From Thermoplasmata archaeon (GTDB taxonomy: Archaea > Thermoplasmatota > Thermoplasmata > Thermoplasmatales > Thermoplasmataceae), in contig JAJZXU010000032.1 of the NCBI GenBank assembly GCA_021806235.1, positions 1 to 39,078 of the forward strand: a DNA stretch of 39,078 nt. The letters run 5' to 3'. Below the pieces are notes generated by a model. That model was not told the DNA's origin and made no database searches. It was given only the letters and a program-made list of their open reading frames with translations. Positions 33,109 to 37,930 of the stretch are shown piece by piece (the stretch's first letter is position 1; each line of letters opens with the position of its first letter). The translations under genes and the position numbers were made by a program.

Positions 33109-33157
33109 CCGGTTGGTCAAGCCTACCTTGAGGTGGACGTACAACAGTACCAACCGG
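33109..33157. repeat. Inverted repeat CCGGTTGGT / ACCAACCGG at the tnpB 5' side
   Basis: Perfect 9-bp arms at 33109-33117 and 33149-33157. Inside is a second small hairpin TCAAG-CCTAC-CTTGA (33117-33131). Nested stem-loops at this place resemble the subterminal hairpins of IS200/IS605 left ends, but the truncated tnpB starts within it, so this may instead be a rearrangement scar. Confidence 0.4.
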
Positions 33158-33912
33158 CACTGGTTTATTTTATTGACATCTATAGTTACATTAATGTTTT
33201 AATAAAGCTTGAGAGGATCCTTGGAATAGATATAGGTGTAAGGAATCTTGTAACCATTGGAAACAACATCTCTGAACGGAGGATTGCCGTAAGGGCAGGA
33301 TTGCTGAAGTCTATAAACCAGTTCTATAATAAGGAGAATGGAAGGTTAAGATCTATAAATGACCTGCAGGGAGATAAAAGAAAGATGACAGAAAGATTAA
33401 AACGCCTTACCATGAAAAGAAACAGGAGAATAAAGGACATAATGCATGAGATCAGTAAATCCATAGTGGAATATGCAAAATCAATGAATATTGATACAAT
33501 TGTAATAAACCATAACGATGGGTGGAAGCAATCTACAGGTATGGGAAGGAAAAATAACCAGAACTTTGTAGAGCTTCCATTTAATGTACTGATAAACCAG
33601 ATCAGGTACAAGGCAGAGGAGAATGGAATTAATGTGATCATGCAGGGGGAATCACACACAAGCAAATGTTCTTTCCTTGATAATGAAACAATAGAACACC
33701 ATGATAACTATACTGGTAAAAGAATAAAACGTGGCATCTTCAGATCAGGCAGTGGCACTCTAATACATGCAGATCTAAATGCATCTTACAATATAATAAA
33801 GAAAGCAGTCCCTGACGCTTTTGCTAACGGGATAGAGGGTATAGGGTTGTACCCACGGAGTTTAAGCATCCCACAGTTCTGTGAGATGATAACTTCCAAA
33901 GGTGGATGTTAA
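33133..33912 (+). CDS. tnpB: 5'-truncated TnpB with intact RuvC catalytic residues
   Basis: 259 aa from a GTG, against about 400-450 for full relatives. RuvC I D33 (GIDIGVRNLVT), RuvC II E173 (QGESHTSKC) and RuvC III D214 (HADLNASYN) are all present, as are the subgroup motifs GLLKSINQFYNK and WKQ...GRKNNQNF. The usual zinc-finger cysteines are missing, but this IS1341-like subgroup normally has KRIKRGIF there instead. The N-terminal guide/target-recognition part (about 150-200 residues) is replaced by about 30 unrelated residues, so it is probably a defective copy. No tnpA is nearby. TnpB proteins are RNA-guided nucleases whose guide RNA is made from the element's right end. Confidence 0.8.
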   Translation: MDVQQYQPALVYFIDIYSYINVLIKLERILGIDIGVRNLVTIGNNISERRIAVRAGLLKSINQFYNKENGRLRSINDLQGDKRKMTERLKRLTMKRNRRIKDIMHEISKSIVEYAKSMNIDTIVINHNDGWKQSTGMGRKNNQNFVELPFNVLINQIRYKAEENGINVIMQGESHTSKCSFLDNETIEHHDNYTGKRIKRGIFRSGSGTLIHADLNASYNIIKKAVPDAFANGIEGIGLYPRSLSIPQFCEMITSKGGC

Positions 33913-33922
33913 CATTGTTAAC
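33908..33922. repeat. Palindrome GTTAAC-ATT-GTTAAC at the tnpB stop codon
   Basis: Two identical GTTAAC palindromes flank ATT; the tnpB stop TAA lies in the first. The same GTTAAC closes the tnpB remnant at 23086-23091. It marks the likely right end of the element. Confidence 0.45.
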
Positions 33923-33950
33923 TGAAATCATAACCTGCACACATGTAATC

Positions 33951-34349
33951 TCATTTTATTGCATGGTAGAACTTATCTAATTCTTTATCAAACGTAGCAA
34001 GATTTTCAATATGGTTTGCAGATATTAGTGCAAGTATAGTACAATCGGTGAAGCTAAATCTTGTCGATTCTTGATCCTTGAAAAGCTTCCATGCATTTTC
34101 AAAGATAATGTCGTTGACAGAAATGACACCAATAGATTCCTTTATGAGTTGCCCCGATGTGATTGCACTTCTCAAAGACTTGGTTCTGACCAAAACAACT
34201 GTCACGGTTTCATCGAACACATAATCAGAGGTAACAGCGGATCCGTACCTGCCGGCTATAATGCTATCTACCAACTGAACAGCTTTCCCGTGGTTGCTAT
34301 CCCTATCAACAATATAAGCAACGAGGACGCTTGTGTCTAGAAATATCAA
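33951..34349 (-). CDS. vapC: VapC toxin, PIN-domain RNase
   Basis: 132 aa. The four PIN acidic residues are seen: D5 (FLDTSVLVA), E47 (VFDETVT), D102 (FTDCTILA) and D121 (TFDKEL). VapC toxins cut RNA, often tRNA or rRNA, with Mg2+. The antitoxin gene upstream overlaps by 4 bases (ATGA), as usual in vapBC operons. It is 39 bases from the tnpB stop, on the opposite strand. Confidence 0.93.
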   Translation of the reverse strand: MIFLDTSVLVAYIVDRDSNHGKAVQLVDSIIAGRYGSAVTSDYVFDETVTVVLVRTKSLRSAITSGQLIKESIGVISVNDIIFENAWKLFKDQESTRFSFTDCTILALISANHIENLATFDKELDKFYHAIK

Positions 34350-34621
34350 TAAAGGTCACCGTAAAGTGTCTCATCTACATCCACACTCCAGTTAACCTTA
34401 CCGCCTGTCTTCACCAATCCATTAAGTTTCAACATTTTCTTGATGTCAGGTCCTTTATACTCTCTTTCCTTTGCTAGCCAATAACCCATAGCCTGATTCA
34501 GTGCTTCCCCAACGTTCTTGTTCTCCTCCATTGCTTTCTGCCTGAACTGTTTATAAATTTCCTTGTCTATTTTCCTCACGACAAGCGTATCATTATTGGT
34601 ATTTTTATTCAATTTAACCAT
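34346..34621 (-). CDS. vapB: VapB-type antitoxin with ribbon-helix-helix head
   Basis: 91 aa. N-terminal strand and helix (TLVVRKIDKEIYKQFRQKAMEENKNVGEALNQAMGYWLAKE, about 12-52) fit the RHH DNA-binding fold; the C-terminal part (GGKVNWSVDVDETLYGDLY) is the toxin-binding tail with the typical final acidic/Tyr motif. It should neutralise VapC and repress its own operon. A near-palindrome (34624-34639) lies against the start codon. Confidence 0.85.
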   Translation of the reverse strand: MVKLNKNTNNDTLVVRKIDKEIYKQFRQKAMEENKNVGEALNQAMGYWLAKEREYKGPDIKKMLKLNGLVKTGGKVNWSVDVDETLYGDLY

Positions 34622-34623
34622 AA

Positions 34624-34639
34624 GTATAACATGTAATAC
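34624..34639 (-). promoter_or_regulatory. Near-palindrome before vapB (GTATA ACATGT AATAC)
   Basis: 14 of 16 positions are symmetric around ACATGT. It starts 3 bases upstream of the vapB ATG, between a TATA-like TTTATTAG (about 34643-34650, minus) and the gene, the right place for VapB autorepression. Confidence 0.4.
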
Positions 34640-34907
34640 ATACTAATAAAGATTGAGATTTAAAATTTTGTACCTGTATAGCTTCATTGATATACTCATG
34701 AAAACCAGTATTAGAGATGATTAGAGAGATGTATTAATTTCATTCATTCTCAATAATTTTCAATGTGATTCCAGTACAAATAACCGCAAACCCAGCAATT
34801 CACTAATATACAATGTATCAGCAGGCACTGTGTCCATATTTATAAAAATGCTATTTAATCGTTCATCAGATGCAGTAACAACATTCGGAAAATAGTTACT
34901 TCATGGG
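34640..34907. other. Gene-poor sequence between vapBC and the gene-tail repeat
   Basis: No convincing gene. A 25-codon minus-strand frame (34760-34837, MDTVPADTLYISELLGLRL...) is open from an ATG, but a TATA-like sequence sits right against it and it has no family. It may be a fragment. Confidence 0.35.
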
Positions 34908-35015
34908 ATCCTATTTTACAGCTGAAATTTGATTAATTGATTCATATTTAGGAGATTTGAAGTTATGAATAATCTGTGGAGCTACCTCCATAGCCTTTTC
35001 TTGCGATGTAAAAAG
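34908..35015. repeat. Copy 1 of a 108-bp duplicated gene tail
   Basis: Aligns without gaps to 36150-36257, differing at 10 positions (about 91% identical). In both copies the minus strand is open and ends in TAG, spelling LFTSQEKAMEVAPQIIHN (copy 1) or LFTSQEKAMEIAPQIIHN (copy 2). Confidence 0.85.
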
Positions 35016-35102
35016 TGAAATATTTTTTATCTGGTTTTGCAAAACTATTGTAATAAAATGGATACTATTTTTTTTGAATTCGTAATGTCCATAAAACTCT
35101 AT
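34911..35102 (-). pseudogene. Gene remnant whose tail is duplicated at 36153
   Basis: An open frame of 63 codons plus stop follows an in-frame TGA at 35103-35105 and has no ATG at its head (the first codon is ATA). It reads IEFYGHYEFKKNSIHFITIV, then ...NISLFTSQEKAMEVAPQ. Family not recognised. It begins just 8 bases after the stop of the small gene at 35110, so it may once have been a third gene of that operon, or it may use an unusual start. The last 35 codons equal the repeat copy. Confidence 0.45.
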
Positions 35103-35109
35103 TCAAGAG

Positions 35110-35310
35110 TTATGGTAGAAAGCTCCCCTTTCGAAGTTGAATCTTAATGAGGTATTCAGCATAGTTATCCACATCCATACATTCCAGTGCAATAGCTAAT
35201 TCTATATTTCCCTCACTTATCGCATTGGCCTGTTCTTTCTTCTTCAGATCACCCAAAAGTTTTCTTGTTCCCGGACTGGCGTATATAGTCTCAAAATCAT
35301 CAGTTGGCAA
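35110..35310 (-). CDS. Small island protein, paralogue of its upstream neighbour
   Basis: 66 aa. The stretch AISEGNIELAIALECMDVDNYAEYLIKIQLRKG (about 30-62) lines up with LARKSGNRELEQALNSMGTGAFASYLLFKGIERL of the preceding gene (shared pattern GNxELxxALxxMxxxxxAxYL), so the two are tandem paralogues. The family is unknown. The start overlaps the previous gene by 11 bases, showing translational coupling. It may form a hetero-oligomer with its neighbour. Confidence 0.6.
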   Translation of the reverse strand: MPTDDFETIYASPGTRKLLGDLKKKEQANAISEGNIELAIALECMDVDNYAEYLIKIQLRKGSFLP

Positions 35311-35515
35311 GATTGTTCAATTCCTCTAGTCTTTCAATTCCCTTGAATAAAAGATACGAAGCAAAAGCACCGGTTCCCATTGAATTTAATGCTTGTTCTA
35401 GTTCCCTGTTTCCGGATTTCCTCGCAAGCTCAATTGCCTTGGATCTGGCATTCTCTATTTCCTTTAGGGTACTCTTTCGAATTTTTATGACAGCACTCTC
35501 TTTGTTATCTACCAT
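35300..35515 (-). CDS. Small RHH-like protein behind an 18-bp palindrome
   Basis: 71 aa. The N-terminal SAVIKIRKSTLKEIENARSK could be the DNA-contacting strand and first helix of a ribbon-helix-helix protein, and AFASYLLFKGIERLEEL its second helix, with about 20 extra residues in between. A perfect palindrome next to its TATA box supports a self-repressing DNA-binding role. No known toxin is next to it; the coupled partner is its own paralogue. Not assigned to a named family. Confidence 0.6.
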   Translation of the reverse strand: MVDNKESAVIKIRKSTLKEIENARSKAIELARKSGNRELEQALNSMGTGAFASYLLFKGIERLEELNNLAN

Positions 35516-35542
35516 AAATGGAAATACACTAATATATTATAA

Positions 35543-35560
35543 AGTTACCTATAGGTAACT
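35543..35560 (-). promoter_or_regulatory. 18-bp perfect palindrome AGTTACCTATAGGTAACT
   Basis: Fully symmetric over 18 bases. It lies immediately upstream of the TATA-like TTTATAATATATTAG (about 35529-35543, minus) of the small operon starting at 35515, thus covering the TFB recognition position. Binding there would block or recruit TBP/TFB. It is the clearest operator in the window. Confidence 0.65.
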
Positions 35561-36149
35561 ATTAGAAATCTTAACCCTTACCATCACAATCATTTAATGA
35601 ATGAATTCATTCCAAGCGTCTTATCAAGCTTCTCAACTAATGCAGGTATCACACCTATTATCTCACCCTACCATCATCTATTGTGTATACTCTTGTGTTA
35701 CGGGTCTACTTATATTAAATTAATTGTAGAATTAAAAAATTTCCTATCCAGGGGTATCTCCACTCAACCTATTTTTTATTTGTTCTCCCATCGACCTTAA
35801 GTTTACTGTTAAGAATTGCATTATTTTCTAGATTATATCTACTTTCTCTCTTTATTTCCCTATGAGTTTTATATATTTTTATATAGCTACCACTATCTTT
35901 CCCTTATTTTCCTTTACGAACTTTCTTGTACACTCACATTCATTCAGGAGGTAAACGATCACTGAGCATATACCTATTGGATCCACTACTTGGAAAAAAT
36001 TGCTTATTAGCTATTGTGATCAGGAATGAATTGTGAAAAGTGGACCCAAATCCACAAGGCATCCCTCCGTAGAGTGGACGGCGGACAGTTCACCCCTAGT
36101 TATACCTGAACATCCCCTTCACATAGTAGACCAAAAATAACATCCTGAT
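35561..36149. other. Long gene-poor stretch with gene debris
   Basis: No intact gene. On the minus strand about 35597-35671 an open piece spells GEIIGVIPALVEKLDKTLGM and ends in a normal stop, but it is cut off upstream by a stop: probably the tail of a lost gene. At 36040-36055 there is a short hairpin GTGGA-CCCAAA-TCCAC. The segment 36060-36120 is more G+C-rich than its surroundings and may be the end of an old insertion; I cannot name it. Confidence 0.4.
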
Positions 36150-36257
36150 ATCCTATTTTCCAGTTGAAGTTTGATTAACTGATTCATCGTTATGGGATTT
36201 GAGGTTATGAATAATCTGTGGAGCTATCTCCATAGCCTTTTCTTGCGATGTAAAAAG
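36150..36257. repeat. Copy 2 of the 108-bp duplicated gene tail
   Basis: Matches 34908-35015 (98 of 108 bases). Minus strand open to TAG at 36153-36155; similarity ends abruptly at 36257, just after an upstream in-frame TAA, so only the last 35 codons or so remain. Confidence 0.85.
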
Positions 36258-36345
36258 GCATGGTTATTTTTGAAAGAGAGAGCAATGGTTAGTCCTTTAG
36301 CTCTAACCTGAATATGCCTCCAATCGACATTTAAATATCACCAGA

Positions 36346-36370
36346 ATTTACATTAATGAAAAATGTAAAT
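36346..36370 (+). promoter_or_regulatory. Inverted repeat ATTTACATT-n7-AATGTAAAT before the orphan antitoxin
   Basis: Perfect 9-bp arms, 7-bp spacer, directly upstream of the TATA-like TATTTAATATTTTTC (about 36369-36383). The start codon at 36401 is then at leaderless distance. Likely operator for the RHH protein that follows. Confidence 0.6.
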
Positions 36371-36400
36371 ATTTAATATTTTTCAAGTTATTTGTATTTC

Positions 36401-36634
36401 ATGAGTAAAACAGTAACTGTGAATCTAGACGAAACACTTGAAAAAAGATTCAGGGAAAAGGCCACGTTGAAGTATGGAAATAAGAAAGGAGCTCTTGCGA
36501 TGGCCTTCAACGAAGCACTTGATGAATGGCTGAAGAATGGCGACCGGGCACTTCTTAATGAGAACAAGAGGTTATTGAACGAGGGAATAAAAATGAAAAA
36601 GTGGAGCTTTAAAAGAGAAGATTTATATGAGTGA
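36401..36634 (+). CDS. Orphan VapB-type RHH antitoxin
   Basis: 77 aa from ATG at 36401 (an ATG at 36392 adds MYF in front). RHH head: SKTVTVNLDETLEKRFREKA, then KYGNKKGALAMAFNEALDEWL; C-terminal tail MKKWSFKREDLYE is the toxin-grasping end seen in VapB proteins. No vapC follows: the next plus-strand ATG, overlapping the stop, gives only 7 codons. The partner has been lost or acts in trans. Its RHH part resembles the stub fused to mntA at 479. Confidence 0.8.
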   Translation: MSKTVTVNLDETLEKRFREKATLKYGNKKGALAMAFNEALDEWLKNGDRALLNENKRLLNEGIKMKKWSFKREDLYE

Positions 36635-36694
36635 TAAACTATTTTCCTAAATTCCCGCATCATTAGGCATTAGTTGTTAATTTTATCTGCATTT

Positions 36695-37009
36695 TTATGG
36701 GTATGAGAATTTATATATTAGTGTGTAATTTTTGAGTATGCTTTTATAAACTTCATCATGCTGGTCTACATTTATAATTATAATATAGCAATTATCCTCA
36801 TCTGTTTGATAAAGAATTACAAGTCTCTGGCTATTAACTTTTACTGCCCCACATCCTGCAATGCCATAACTTTTTGTTTCTCCTATGTAGGGGTCTTTCT
36901 CAATTTTCTTTATTTCCTTTTTTATCTGCTCTTTAGTATCTTTATTTTTTATTTTTTTTATATAATTTTCTACTTCCGAAGTTTCAAGGAAATATTCTTT
37001 ACACGCCAT
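36695..37009 (-). CDS. RelE/ParE-superfamily toxin
   Basis: 104 aa. Long N-terminal helices (VENYIKKIKNKDTKEQIKKEIKKI, 13-36), then DPYIGETKSYGIAGCGAVKV and the conserved strand pair NSQRLVILYQTD...CYIIIINVDQHDEVYKS, with R62 in the place of a catalytic/ribosome-contacting Arg and the closing H-x-x-VY motif. RelE toxins cut mRNA on the ribosome. The gene follows, after only 5 bases, a Panacea-domain gene, its probable antitoxin. Confidence 0.78.
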   Translation of the reverse strand: MACKEYFLETSEVENYIKKIKNKDTKEQIKKEIKKIEKDPYIGETKSYGIAGCGAVKVNSQRLVILYQTDEDNCYIIIINVDQHDEVYKSILKNYTLIYKFSYP

Positions 37010-37014
37010 GAATA

Positions 37015-37560
37015 TCAGGAAAATAATTCATCAAGCTCTGCATCACTTTTTATTATATGTTTGTGATATGCACCTTTTTTAATATTCTCATTATGGATTT
37101 TTTCAGCTTCCTCCCAGAATTCCCTGGAATTAATTAACCTGTAATACCAGGCAAAATCATCCATCTTTATAGGATTGTTGAATTCTTCCGCATCAATATA
37201 TGGCTGTGTTTCATCCGCAAGTTTTTCCAGTTCTGATCCGTTTCTATTTATATAAGGCAGTAGCAAACTATCTATTTCTGCTGCAAGCTTATTGTCTATA
37301 TCGACCTTCTCATTTACAAGTTCTGATAGTTTGGTGGGGTATCCATTATCCTGCTCTTTAATTATTACATTTTCCTCAATACCCTCTGAATAAGGTCCAT
37401 AGTAATATCTTTTAAATGATAGATCTGATAGCCTTTCACCGTATTTTTTTATATATCCATATTCTGCAAAATAGGCAAGTTTCTGCAATTTCTTCTGTGG
37501 CAATGGACCATATTTGCTCAATAAATATTTAACAAGGTCTACTCCACTTATCTTTACCAT
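37015..37560 (-). CDS. Panacea-domain (SocA/GepA-like, DUF4065) antitoxin
   Basis: 181 aa. The hallmark is at residues 10-60: VKYLLSKYGPLPQKKLQKL, then AYFAEYGYIKKYGERLSDLSFKRYYYGPYSEGI. This domain is the promiscuous antitoxin module of the PanAT systems and of SocA. The rest is helical with a tail of charged residues. Paired downstream with a RelE-like toxin, so the module is antitoxin-first and co-transcribed. Upstream lie TATA-like DNA and a GAGCGAAG sequence close to the ATG. Confidence 0.8.
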   Translation of the reverse strand: MVKISGVDLVKYLLSKYGPLPQKKLQKLAYFAEYGYIKKYGERLSDLSFKRYYYGPYSEGIEENVIIKEQDNGYPTKLSELVNEKVDIDNKLAAEIDSLLLPYINRNGSELEKLADETQPYIDAEEFNNPIKMDDFAWYYRLINSREFWEEAEKIHNENIKKGAYHKHIIKSDAELDELFS

Positions 37561-37795
37561 ATCTTCGCTCTCCGCAGAAAACTATTTTTAAAAATTATAT
37601 AAAACTTTGTATCACGTTTATTTTATATGCTATAATAATTATAAAATCCAAAAACAGAAGGACTTATATAATCCATTTTCATATTTTATCTATCACAGTG
37701 CCTTAATGATTATATATTATCCTTAATATAATTAATTATATAGTATTATTTTTATATTATAAAAAGTGGTTCGTGAGTATATAAAGAAAACTTCT

Positions 37796-37814: not shown

Positions 37815-37835
37815 TAACTCATACTCTATTATAAA

Positions 37836-37908
37836 TGGGTCTGTCCGGATTTGGACCGGAGTTTCCAACTCCCGAAGCTGGAAGGATACCAGGCTACCCC
37901 ACAAACCC
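37836..37908 (-). tRNA. tRNA-Pro, anticodon CGG
   Basis: 73 nt, folded by eye. Acceptor GGGTTTG/CAGACCC, D-loop AGCCTGGTA, anticodon stem CCAGC/GTTGG around TTCGGGA (anticodon CGG at 37872-37874, G37 after it), variable loop AAAC, T-stem TCCGG/CCGGA, discriminator A. CCA is not encoded; no intron. It reads CCG proline codons. T-loop is TCCAAAT: position 55 is C in place of the near-universal T, an oddity that should be checked. Confidence 0.92.
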
Positions 37909-37930
37909 ATAATACGCTAATTATTTATGA

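Follow-up and report, generated by a model that had tools for sequence, protein, structure and literature searches.

A tRNA-linked Panacea–RelE-type gene pair in the Ferroplasma/Acidiplasma group resembles a PanAT toxin–antitoxin module

Introduction

The Panacea domain is studied because a single fold neutralizes unrelated toxins. Kurata et al. 2022 (PMC8832971) reported at least 88 toxin–Panacea combinations across bacteria, archaea, and phages; three archaeal phyla contain Panacea, and one of the toxin domains is ParE. Thermoplasmatota are counted among the archaeal carriers of toxin–antitoxin (TA) systems, for which RelE/ParE is one of the commonest folds (Kurata et al. 2023, PMC10440598). 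Here, we analyze a gene pair from one member of this phylum, found in a 39,078-nt stretch of DNA that we refer to as the window and that is contig 29 of a 1.93-Mb genome.

The pair can be set against four kinds of described system. It shares with PanAT a Panacea gene placed first, a short gap, and a small toxin gene, and archaeal cases and ParE-type partners of PanAT are known (PMC8832971); it differs in that its toxin keeps mRNase-type residues and is part of a RelE-like clade for which our searches gave members in Thermoplasmata(ota) alone. With RelBE, including the archaeal systems of Pyrococcus and Methanocaldococcus, it shares the toxin fold (both are among the fold matches) and several active-site-like residues, but its antitoxin is a 181-aa Panacea protein and not RelB. 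The type VI system SocAB of Caulobacter also has a Panacea-domain antitoxin, SocA; however, SocA promotes proteolysis of SocB (PMC8832971), and the window Panacea protein reaches 15 bits against the NCBIfam SocA equivalog, far below its cut-off of 190. Lastly, islands near tRNAs that carry TA systems have already been reported from acidophilic archaea (PMC12302457), so only the specific AT-rich block described below and the Panacea cargo would be additions; neither Panacea nor SocA occurs in the main text of that report, and no shared tRNA-adjacent block was seen in its passages. Article listings and main-text passages, including those of PMC8832971, showed no archaeal example of this pair and no description of the block.

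The Gene Pair and Its Conservation

A putative antitoxin gene of the Panacea (SocA/DUF4065) family, encoding 181 aa, occupies positions 37015..37560 of the minus strand (PF13274, 29.1 bits, cut-off 25.7) and is followed on the same strand by a 104-aa putative toxin gene of the RelE/ParE superfamily at 36695..37009 (PF15781 ParE-like_toxin, 42.9 bits, cut-off 28). The TGA of the Panacea gene and the ATG of the RelE-like gene are 5 nt apart, and a sequence-only reading of this DNA, which had described a Panacea gene and a RelE-like gene separated by 5 bases, was accurate on both open reading frames (ORFs) and their spacing. No second domain was found in the Panacea protein with Pfam. A candidate TATA-like box, recognized by sequence inspection only, lies upstream of the Panacea ATG at 37594..37604 (minus strand), and 274 nt ahead of the Panacea start is a tRNA-Pro (CGG) gene on the same strand at 37835..37909 (ARAGORN; Rfam RF00005, 47.9 bits). 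Judged by domains and arrangement, the module looks like a type II TA system of the PanAT kind.

Several other features of the window were noted by eye: a TnpB-like ORF at 33133-33912, a VapBC-like pair at 33951-34621, and an orphan ribbon-helix-helix-like ORF at 36392-36634, which together suggest that a mobile or TA-rich stretch (33133-36634) adjoins the module, and, at 479-1341, a gene pair resembling MNT nucleotidyltransferase–HEPN. A sequence of ~50 bp at 36640-36690 recurs on contigs C13, C14, and C17 of the same genome and is probably a dispersed repeat.

The sequence-only reading had proposed a survey of Panacea genes in Thermoplasmatales, and this was carried out on 117 genomes of the order. 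Panacea matches at E<=0.001 were obtained in 26 genomes (23 above the cut-off), at 29 places. By tblastn, 13 of these places show homology to the window gene, and all 13 belong to the window's own archaeal family. The same RelE-like toxin gene immediately follows Panacea at 11 of the 13, the exceptions being a truncated solitary copy on contig C10 of the window's own genome (L001) and locus L009. Five of the 11 pairs (the window, L004, L007, L008, and L010) are fully open, with ATG, GTG, or TTG starts and gaps of 5-8 nt. One gene is broken by a stop or frameshift in four others: at L003 Panacea contains a stop and the toxin is short; at L005 the stop is inside the toxin; L011/L062 combines a frameshifted Panacea with an open toxin frame in which ATA replaces the start ATG; and at L028 it is the toxin that is frameshifted. 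One pair is interrupted by a contig end (L006), and one is open with CTG at the expected toxin start (L013/L065). ORF listings of the module loci viewed gave no conserved third gene on the same strand. Two Panacea matches from family f1 (L026 and L029) were left outside the 13, since tblastn shows no homology to the window gene, and the short Panacea proteins of family f3 (14 matches) were set aside as well; the seven of these that were viewed have MinD-like Fe-S ATPase neighbors, identified by eye, and no toxins.

An alignment of 10 Panacea proteins has 25 invariant columns. Both genes show purifying selection in Nei-Gojobori comparisons with homologs, in which dN/dS was 0.11-0.18 for Panacea (five of seven comparisons finite) and 0.16-0.25 for the toxin (three of five finite); these values are approximate and reflect past selection, and they are rough because synonymous change was saturated in the four other comparisons and several of the finite dS values exceed 1. 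A pattern-based scan of genome contigs recovered 11 related Panacea loci, all in Thermoplasmata(ota) records: one in Acidiplasma aeolicum, one in a Ferroplasmaceae metagenome-assembled genome (MAG), and nine in Thermoplasmata or Thermoplasmatota MAGs.

It could be argued from the two toxinless loci that the genes are neighbors by descent only, with Panacea regulating something else and the RelE-like protein having another antitoxin. We consider this very improbable: the pairing is kept behind a range of tRNAs and across species, with gaps of 5-8 nt, and in a sample of 389 genomes from the phylum each of the five best toxin matches (>125 bits) is a module toxin adjoining Panacea; the match after these scores 48 bits. 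The archaeal Panacea–RelE pair put forward by the sequence-only reading stands as a conserved, type II TA-like pair of the Ferroplasma/Acidiplasma group, but its novelty is smaller than that reading assumed, as three archaeal phyla with Panacea and ParE-type partners are in print (PMC8832971).

Ten more Panacea loci were viewed in other Thermoplasmatota families (L101-L108 and L110 among them), and the next gene was scanned at seven. It matched PemK/MazF above the cut-off at L105, at the cut-off at L102, and below it at L107 and L104; a weak ParE-like match was obtained at L110 (14 bits, cut-off 28), a weak Gp49-like match at L106, and no family match at L108. Because some Panacea genes there have PemK/MazF-like neighbors, partner exchange could be compared inside a single archaeal phylum.

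The Predicted Toxin and Antitoxin

The RelE-like assignment made in the sequence-only reading was borne out by profile searches, in which the toxin family returned E. coli RelE chains first in the Protein Data Bank (PDB) at E ~1e-6 and the window toxin matched PHROG 1213 "RelE-like toxin" at 1.3e-7. An AlphaFold2 model built from 8 sequences (pLDDT 72, pTM 0.63) has the RelE/ParE order of elements, helices and then a beta sheet, and all six Foldseek matches with E<=0.001 are E. coli RelE. On this model the toxin has the RelE/ParE-superfamily fold. The fold alone decides no choice between RelE and ParE, since VIA-align gives Z ~10 to RelE, ParE, and YoeB alike, over 76-90 residues.

In an alignment of eight toxins, every sequence has K46 and Y67 and carries either Arg or Lys at position 62, and K57 is present in seven; His84, Asp85, and Tyr88 are found in all seven that reach that far. 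Cleavage of mRNA by RelE depends on Arg61, Arg81, and Tyr87, and the RelE relative RNase Sa2 has His at the position of Arg81 (PMC2807027). In our reading of the HMM alignment to RelE, Tyr88 corresponds to the RelE Tyr, Arg62 lies two columns from R61, and the His falls near Arg81. ParE toxins are described as being without the RNase catalytic residues, and archaea are nearly absent from three of the four ParE subclusters, although one holds 138 archaeal proteins among 734 members (PMC11980606). Because RelE-like basic residues, His84, and Tyr88 are kept here, and ParE lacks the catalytic residues and has few or no archaeal members in most subclusters, an mRNA-cutting RelE is favored over a gyrase-poisoning ParE, though not strongly. 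The opposite view, that Panacea neutralizes a ParE-type inhibitor of DNA gyrase, can draw on the best Pfam family being PF15781 and on the equal VIA-align scores of the ParE chains; with E. coli RelE returned first by both the PDB profile search and Foldseek, and with basic residues at 57 and 62 conserved together with H84 and Y88, we regard it as unlikely.

The Panacea protein gave less to work with. Because its structure model is poor (pLDDT 60) and a PDB fold search with this weak model returned no usable match, no contact interface can be proposed. A sub-cut-off match was obtained to positions 182-295 of the 338-position DarG antitoxin model (E 3e-4, 20 bits, cut-off 250). No relative of Panacea emerged when its profile was run against IMG/VR, searches of phage and plasmid collections gave weak Panacea matches to one phage and four plasmid records, all below 60% identity, and none of the plasmid records matched the toxin. 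On these IMG/VR, phage, and plasmid results for Panacea, and on the plasmid result for the toxin, a viral origin of the module was rejected as improbable.

A Conserved Block between tRNA and Panacea

Panacea lies directly behind a tRNA at five loci, and the tRNA is different each time: Pro in the window, Val-CAC at a second copy in the same genome, Leu-CAA in sister genome G064, Leu-TAA in Acidiplasma aeolicum, and Leu-TAG in UBA567. A sixth Panacea locus begins at a contig end, apparently just within the tail of a tRNA. Between tRNA and Panacea is an AT-rich block of ~65 nt, TTTATATACTC..GA.CC..TTTT.TAATATAAAAATAA..ATTATATAAT, which is conserved at six Panacea loci. Its core in the window spans 37724..37790 of the minus strand and carries TTTATATACTCACGAACC at 37768-37785; the pattern occurs once in the window with <=1 mismatch, against 0.03 occurrences expected. 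Seven of the 13 Panacea loci, from two other genera (g4 and g5), have neither the block nor an adjoining tRNA.

Searching 77 genomes of the family with the block gave at least 66 places, at least 24 of them with E<1e-6. We examined 27 copies, namely the 24 with E<1e-6 and three more (G062:C43, G000:C10:158857, and G093:C80). A same-strand tRNA lies 35-81 nt upstream of the aligned block at 23 of the 27 copies (20 of the 24 with E<1e-6), and the four copies without one comprise a contig-cut locus and a single non-tRNA site common to three genomes. At that site (L144, L145, and L146, in G062:C86, G061:C1, and G060:C1) the block copy is downstream of a gene that by eye is radical-SAM-like and is followed by several hundred nearly identical bases with no clear gene. 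Beyond the 27 tabulated copies, L194 and L196 are weak copies without a tRNA, and none of three weaker places in the window's own genome is beside a tRNA.

Two further ORFs of that genome were noted in stretches with weak block copies. Behind the copy at tRNA-Arg(GCG), a 137-aa ORF with a YGPYS motif (L193, G000:C10:158200-161500, positions 752-1165) may encode a diverged relative of Panacea (48% hhalign probability across 33 columns). A 72-aa ORF in L194 (G000:C20:12200-15500, positions 1788-2006) resembles the start of Panacea (65% hhalign probability across 43 columns), and the L194 stretch contains no tRNA.

As a control, we took the 3′ flanks of all 45 Rfam tRNAs in the window's own genome. 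The block is found at E<1e-6 in six of them (Pro, Val, Arg-CCG, Asp, Arg-GCG, and one on contig C8); three more match weakly (E 8e-5), two of which are tandem C10 tRNAs sharing one copy, and at least 36 are without it. The block is no general feature of tRNA flanks, since only six of 45 in this genome clearly carry it. Conversely, among the matches listed in the family search, all four from this genome with E<1e-6 are behind a tRNA, and a random place in the genome falls within 100 nt behind one of the 45 tRNAs with p ~0.0012, about 1/860. The tRNA on C8 (G000:C8:72014-72086, minus strand; 3′ flank in L224) has a good copy, with E 2e-12, which, like the copy at G062:C43, was not among the places listed in the family search.

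These data also bear on the proposal that certain tRNA 3′ flanks carry the block as a promoter-like feature, that it marks no mobile-element end, and that the module simply landed there. The spacing between tRNA and block is indeed similar for many tRNAs from several species, and the block contains TTTATATA, which we take to resemble an archaeal TATA box. The control in 45 flanks makes this proposal less likely, and the tRNA-Pro flank of G063, from the same genus, diverges immediately past the tRNA; the block moreover occurs at one non-tRNA site and opens an integrase-bearing element in G064 that is described next. Taken with these observations, the promoter-like proposal seems to us improbable.

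A Possible Integrative-Element Context

Behind the 27 block copies, Panacea in any state, relics included, is present at seven and the RelE-like gene at five. A small convergent gene, which we call gene A, is found behind the block at eight copies: at two of these (G065:C65 and G041:C250) the module sits between the block and gene A, and at the other six gene A follows the block directly with no module. One Panacea-like tblastn match, at G063:C14:1775, was excluded from these counts as spurious (opposite strand, 28% identity, E 5e-4).

On contig C3 of G064, the block behind tRNA-Leu(AAG) opens an element that carries gene A and a tyrosine recombinase gene (PF00589, 81.7 bits, cut-off 27.1). 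A same-strand repeat resembling the tRNA end (14 of 18 matches) lies ~4.1 kb on; as the single match of this kind in 20 kb, it is suggestive of the end of the element and not proof of it. Eleven loci were tested in this way, and the other ten had no same-strand tRNA-end repeat of that quality. This element and the tRNA-Arg locus of the window's own genome have in common a pair of small neighboring genes (L201, 2202-2764; L204, 1788-2368), the latter gene of the pair looking membrane-like by eye; for the L201 pair, Pfam offers no convincing family.

At L064, the toxin stop codon is 7 nt from a 457-aa integrase-like ORF beside tRNA-Pro. This ORF matches a PHROG integrase at 2e-5 and has no Pfam match and no useful PDB match, and its homolog at L066 (37% identity) has no match in PHROG or Pfam. 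We did not uphold it as a proven integrase given the single weak PHROG match and the lack of a Pfam match. There is no integrase gene in the window, and the genome has a single PF00589 match, on another contig; the PF00589 model also misses the integrase-like ORF of L064. A duplicated tRNA end was not found around the window module on either strand with <=4 mismatches in 18 nt. Having neither an integrase nor a second tRNA end, the window copy is not itself classed as a tRNA-site integrative element.

The simplest reading of these comparisons is that integrative elements of one family would have the block as their tRNA-facing end, with the module as optional cargo there, and we infer that the window copy, too, may be element cargo. 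A more detailed scheme, in which tRNA-seeking elements of Ferroplasmaceae would use the block to dock behind many different tRNAs while a Panacea–RelE cassette of ~0.9 kb plugs in and is lost again through short repeats, is offered tentatively, as something that could well be wrong.

Apparent Loss and Decay

Sister genome G064 is without the module at tRNA-Pro (G064:C26), where its flanks are 94.9% and 97.8% identical to the window. The flanks are joined at a single copy of TGAGTAT, the 7-bp direct repeat that, when this junction is read against the window sequence, bounds the window module on the left (36733..36739) and right (37774..37780). G064 retains the first ~60 nt past the tRNA, which are homologous to stretches behind tRNA-Val and tRNA-Arg in the window's own genome. 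Because this DNA is kept and is common to the Val and Arg sites, we rejected the idea that G064 represents a pristine preinsertion site and regard the junction as module loss; it reads as a deletion scar between the 7-bp repeats. The final 14 codons and stop of the window toxin (36695..36739, minus strand) are also present at this module-less site, with a 100% tblastn match of residues 91-104 in the G064:C26 flank. The junction and the matching flank DNA show that these residues of the toxin are encoded by the flank.

Frequent decay is expected of TA cargo. In the window's own genome, a truncated Panacea lies behind tRNA-Val and a block without module genes behind tRNA-Arg, and, as set out above, six of the 11 pairs carry a stop or frameshift, a contig end, or a CTG start. 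These remnants, together with a window toxin whose tail came from the flank, are what would be seen if the window module were a passenger that has decayed into an inactive relic and now serves no function. Both window frames are open, however, with the conserved residues kept, and the approximate dN/dS is well below 1 for both genes, though this speaks to past selection. A relic is, in our estimate, quite unlikely.

Proposed Function

We consider it probable that the pair is a PanAT-type module with a RelE-type toxin, carried as optional cargo at the tRNA-facing end of an element and used in addiction or defence. The Panacea-domain protein would be the antitoxin, binding and silencing the toxin, and the RelE-type toxin would most likely cut mRNA on the ribosome. 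In Ferroplasma and Acidiplasma, the module would travel with integrative elements, at the tRNA-facing end that the AT-rich block marks, and there, before decaying, it may penalize loss of the element or serve in abortive defence.

The known PanAT kind thereby gains a member, and the block merits follow-up. The module is well suited to contact-surface mapping, being compact and archaeal and combining a RelE-type toxin and a small Panacea core with ~10 diverged homologs. Its tRNA-linked context was unexpected and did not figure in the sequence-only reading, and it makes the pair a useful, not a revolutionary, example. If the docking scheme is true, the Panacea–RelE pair would be a reusable stabilizer of integration at tRNA sites, and the sequence behind the block could be read to discover new toxins paired with Panacea. 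If the block is the end of an element family, it would give a sequence handle on mobile DNA and its cargo in acidophilic archaea.
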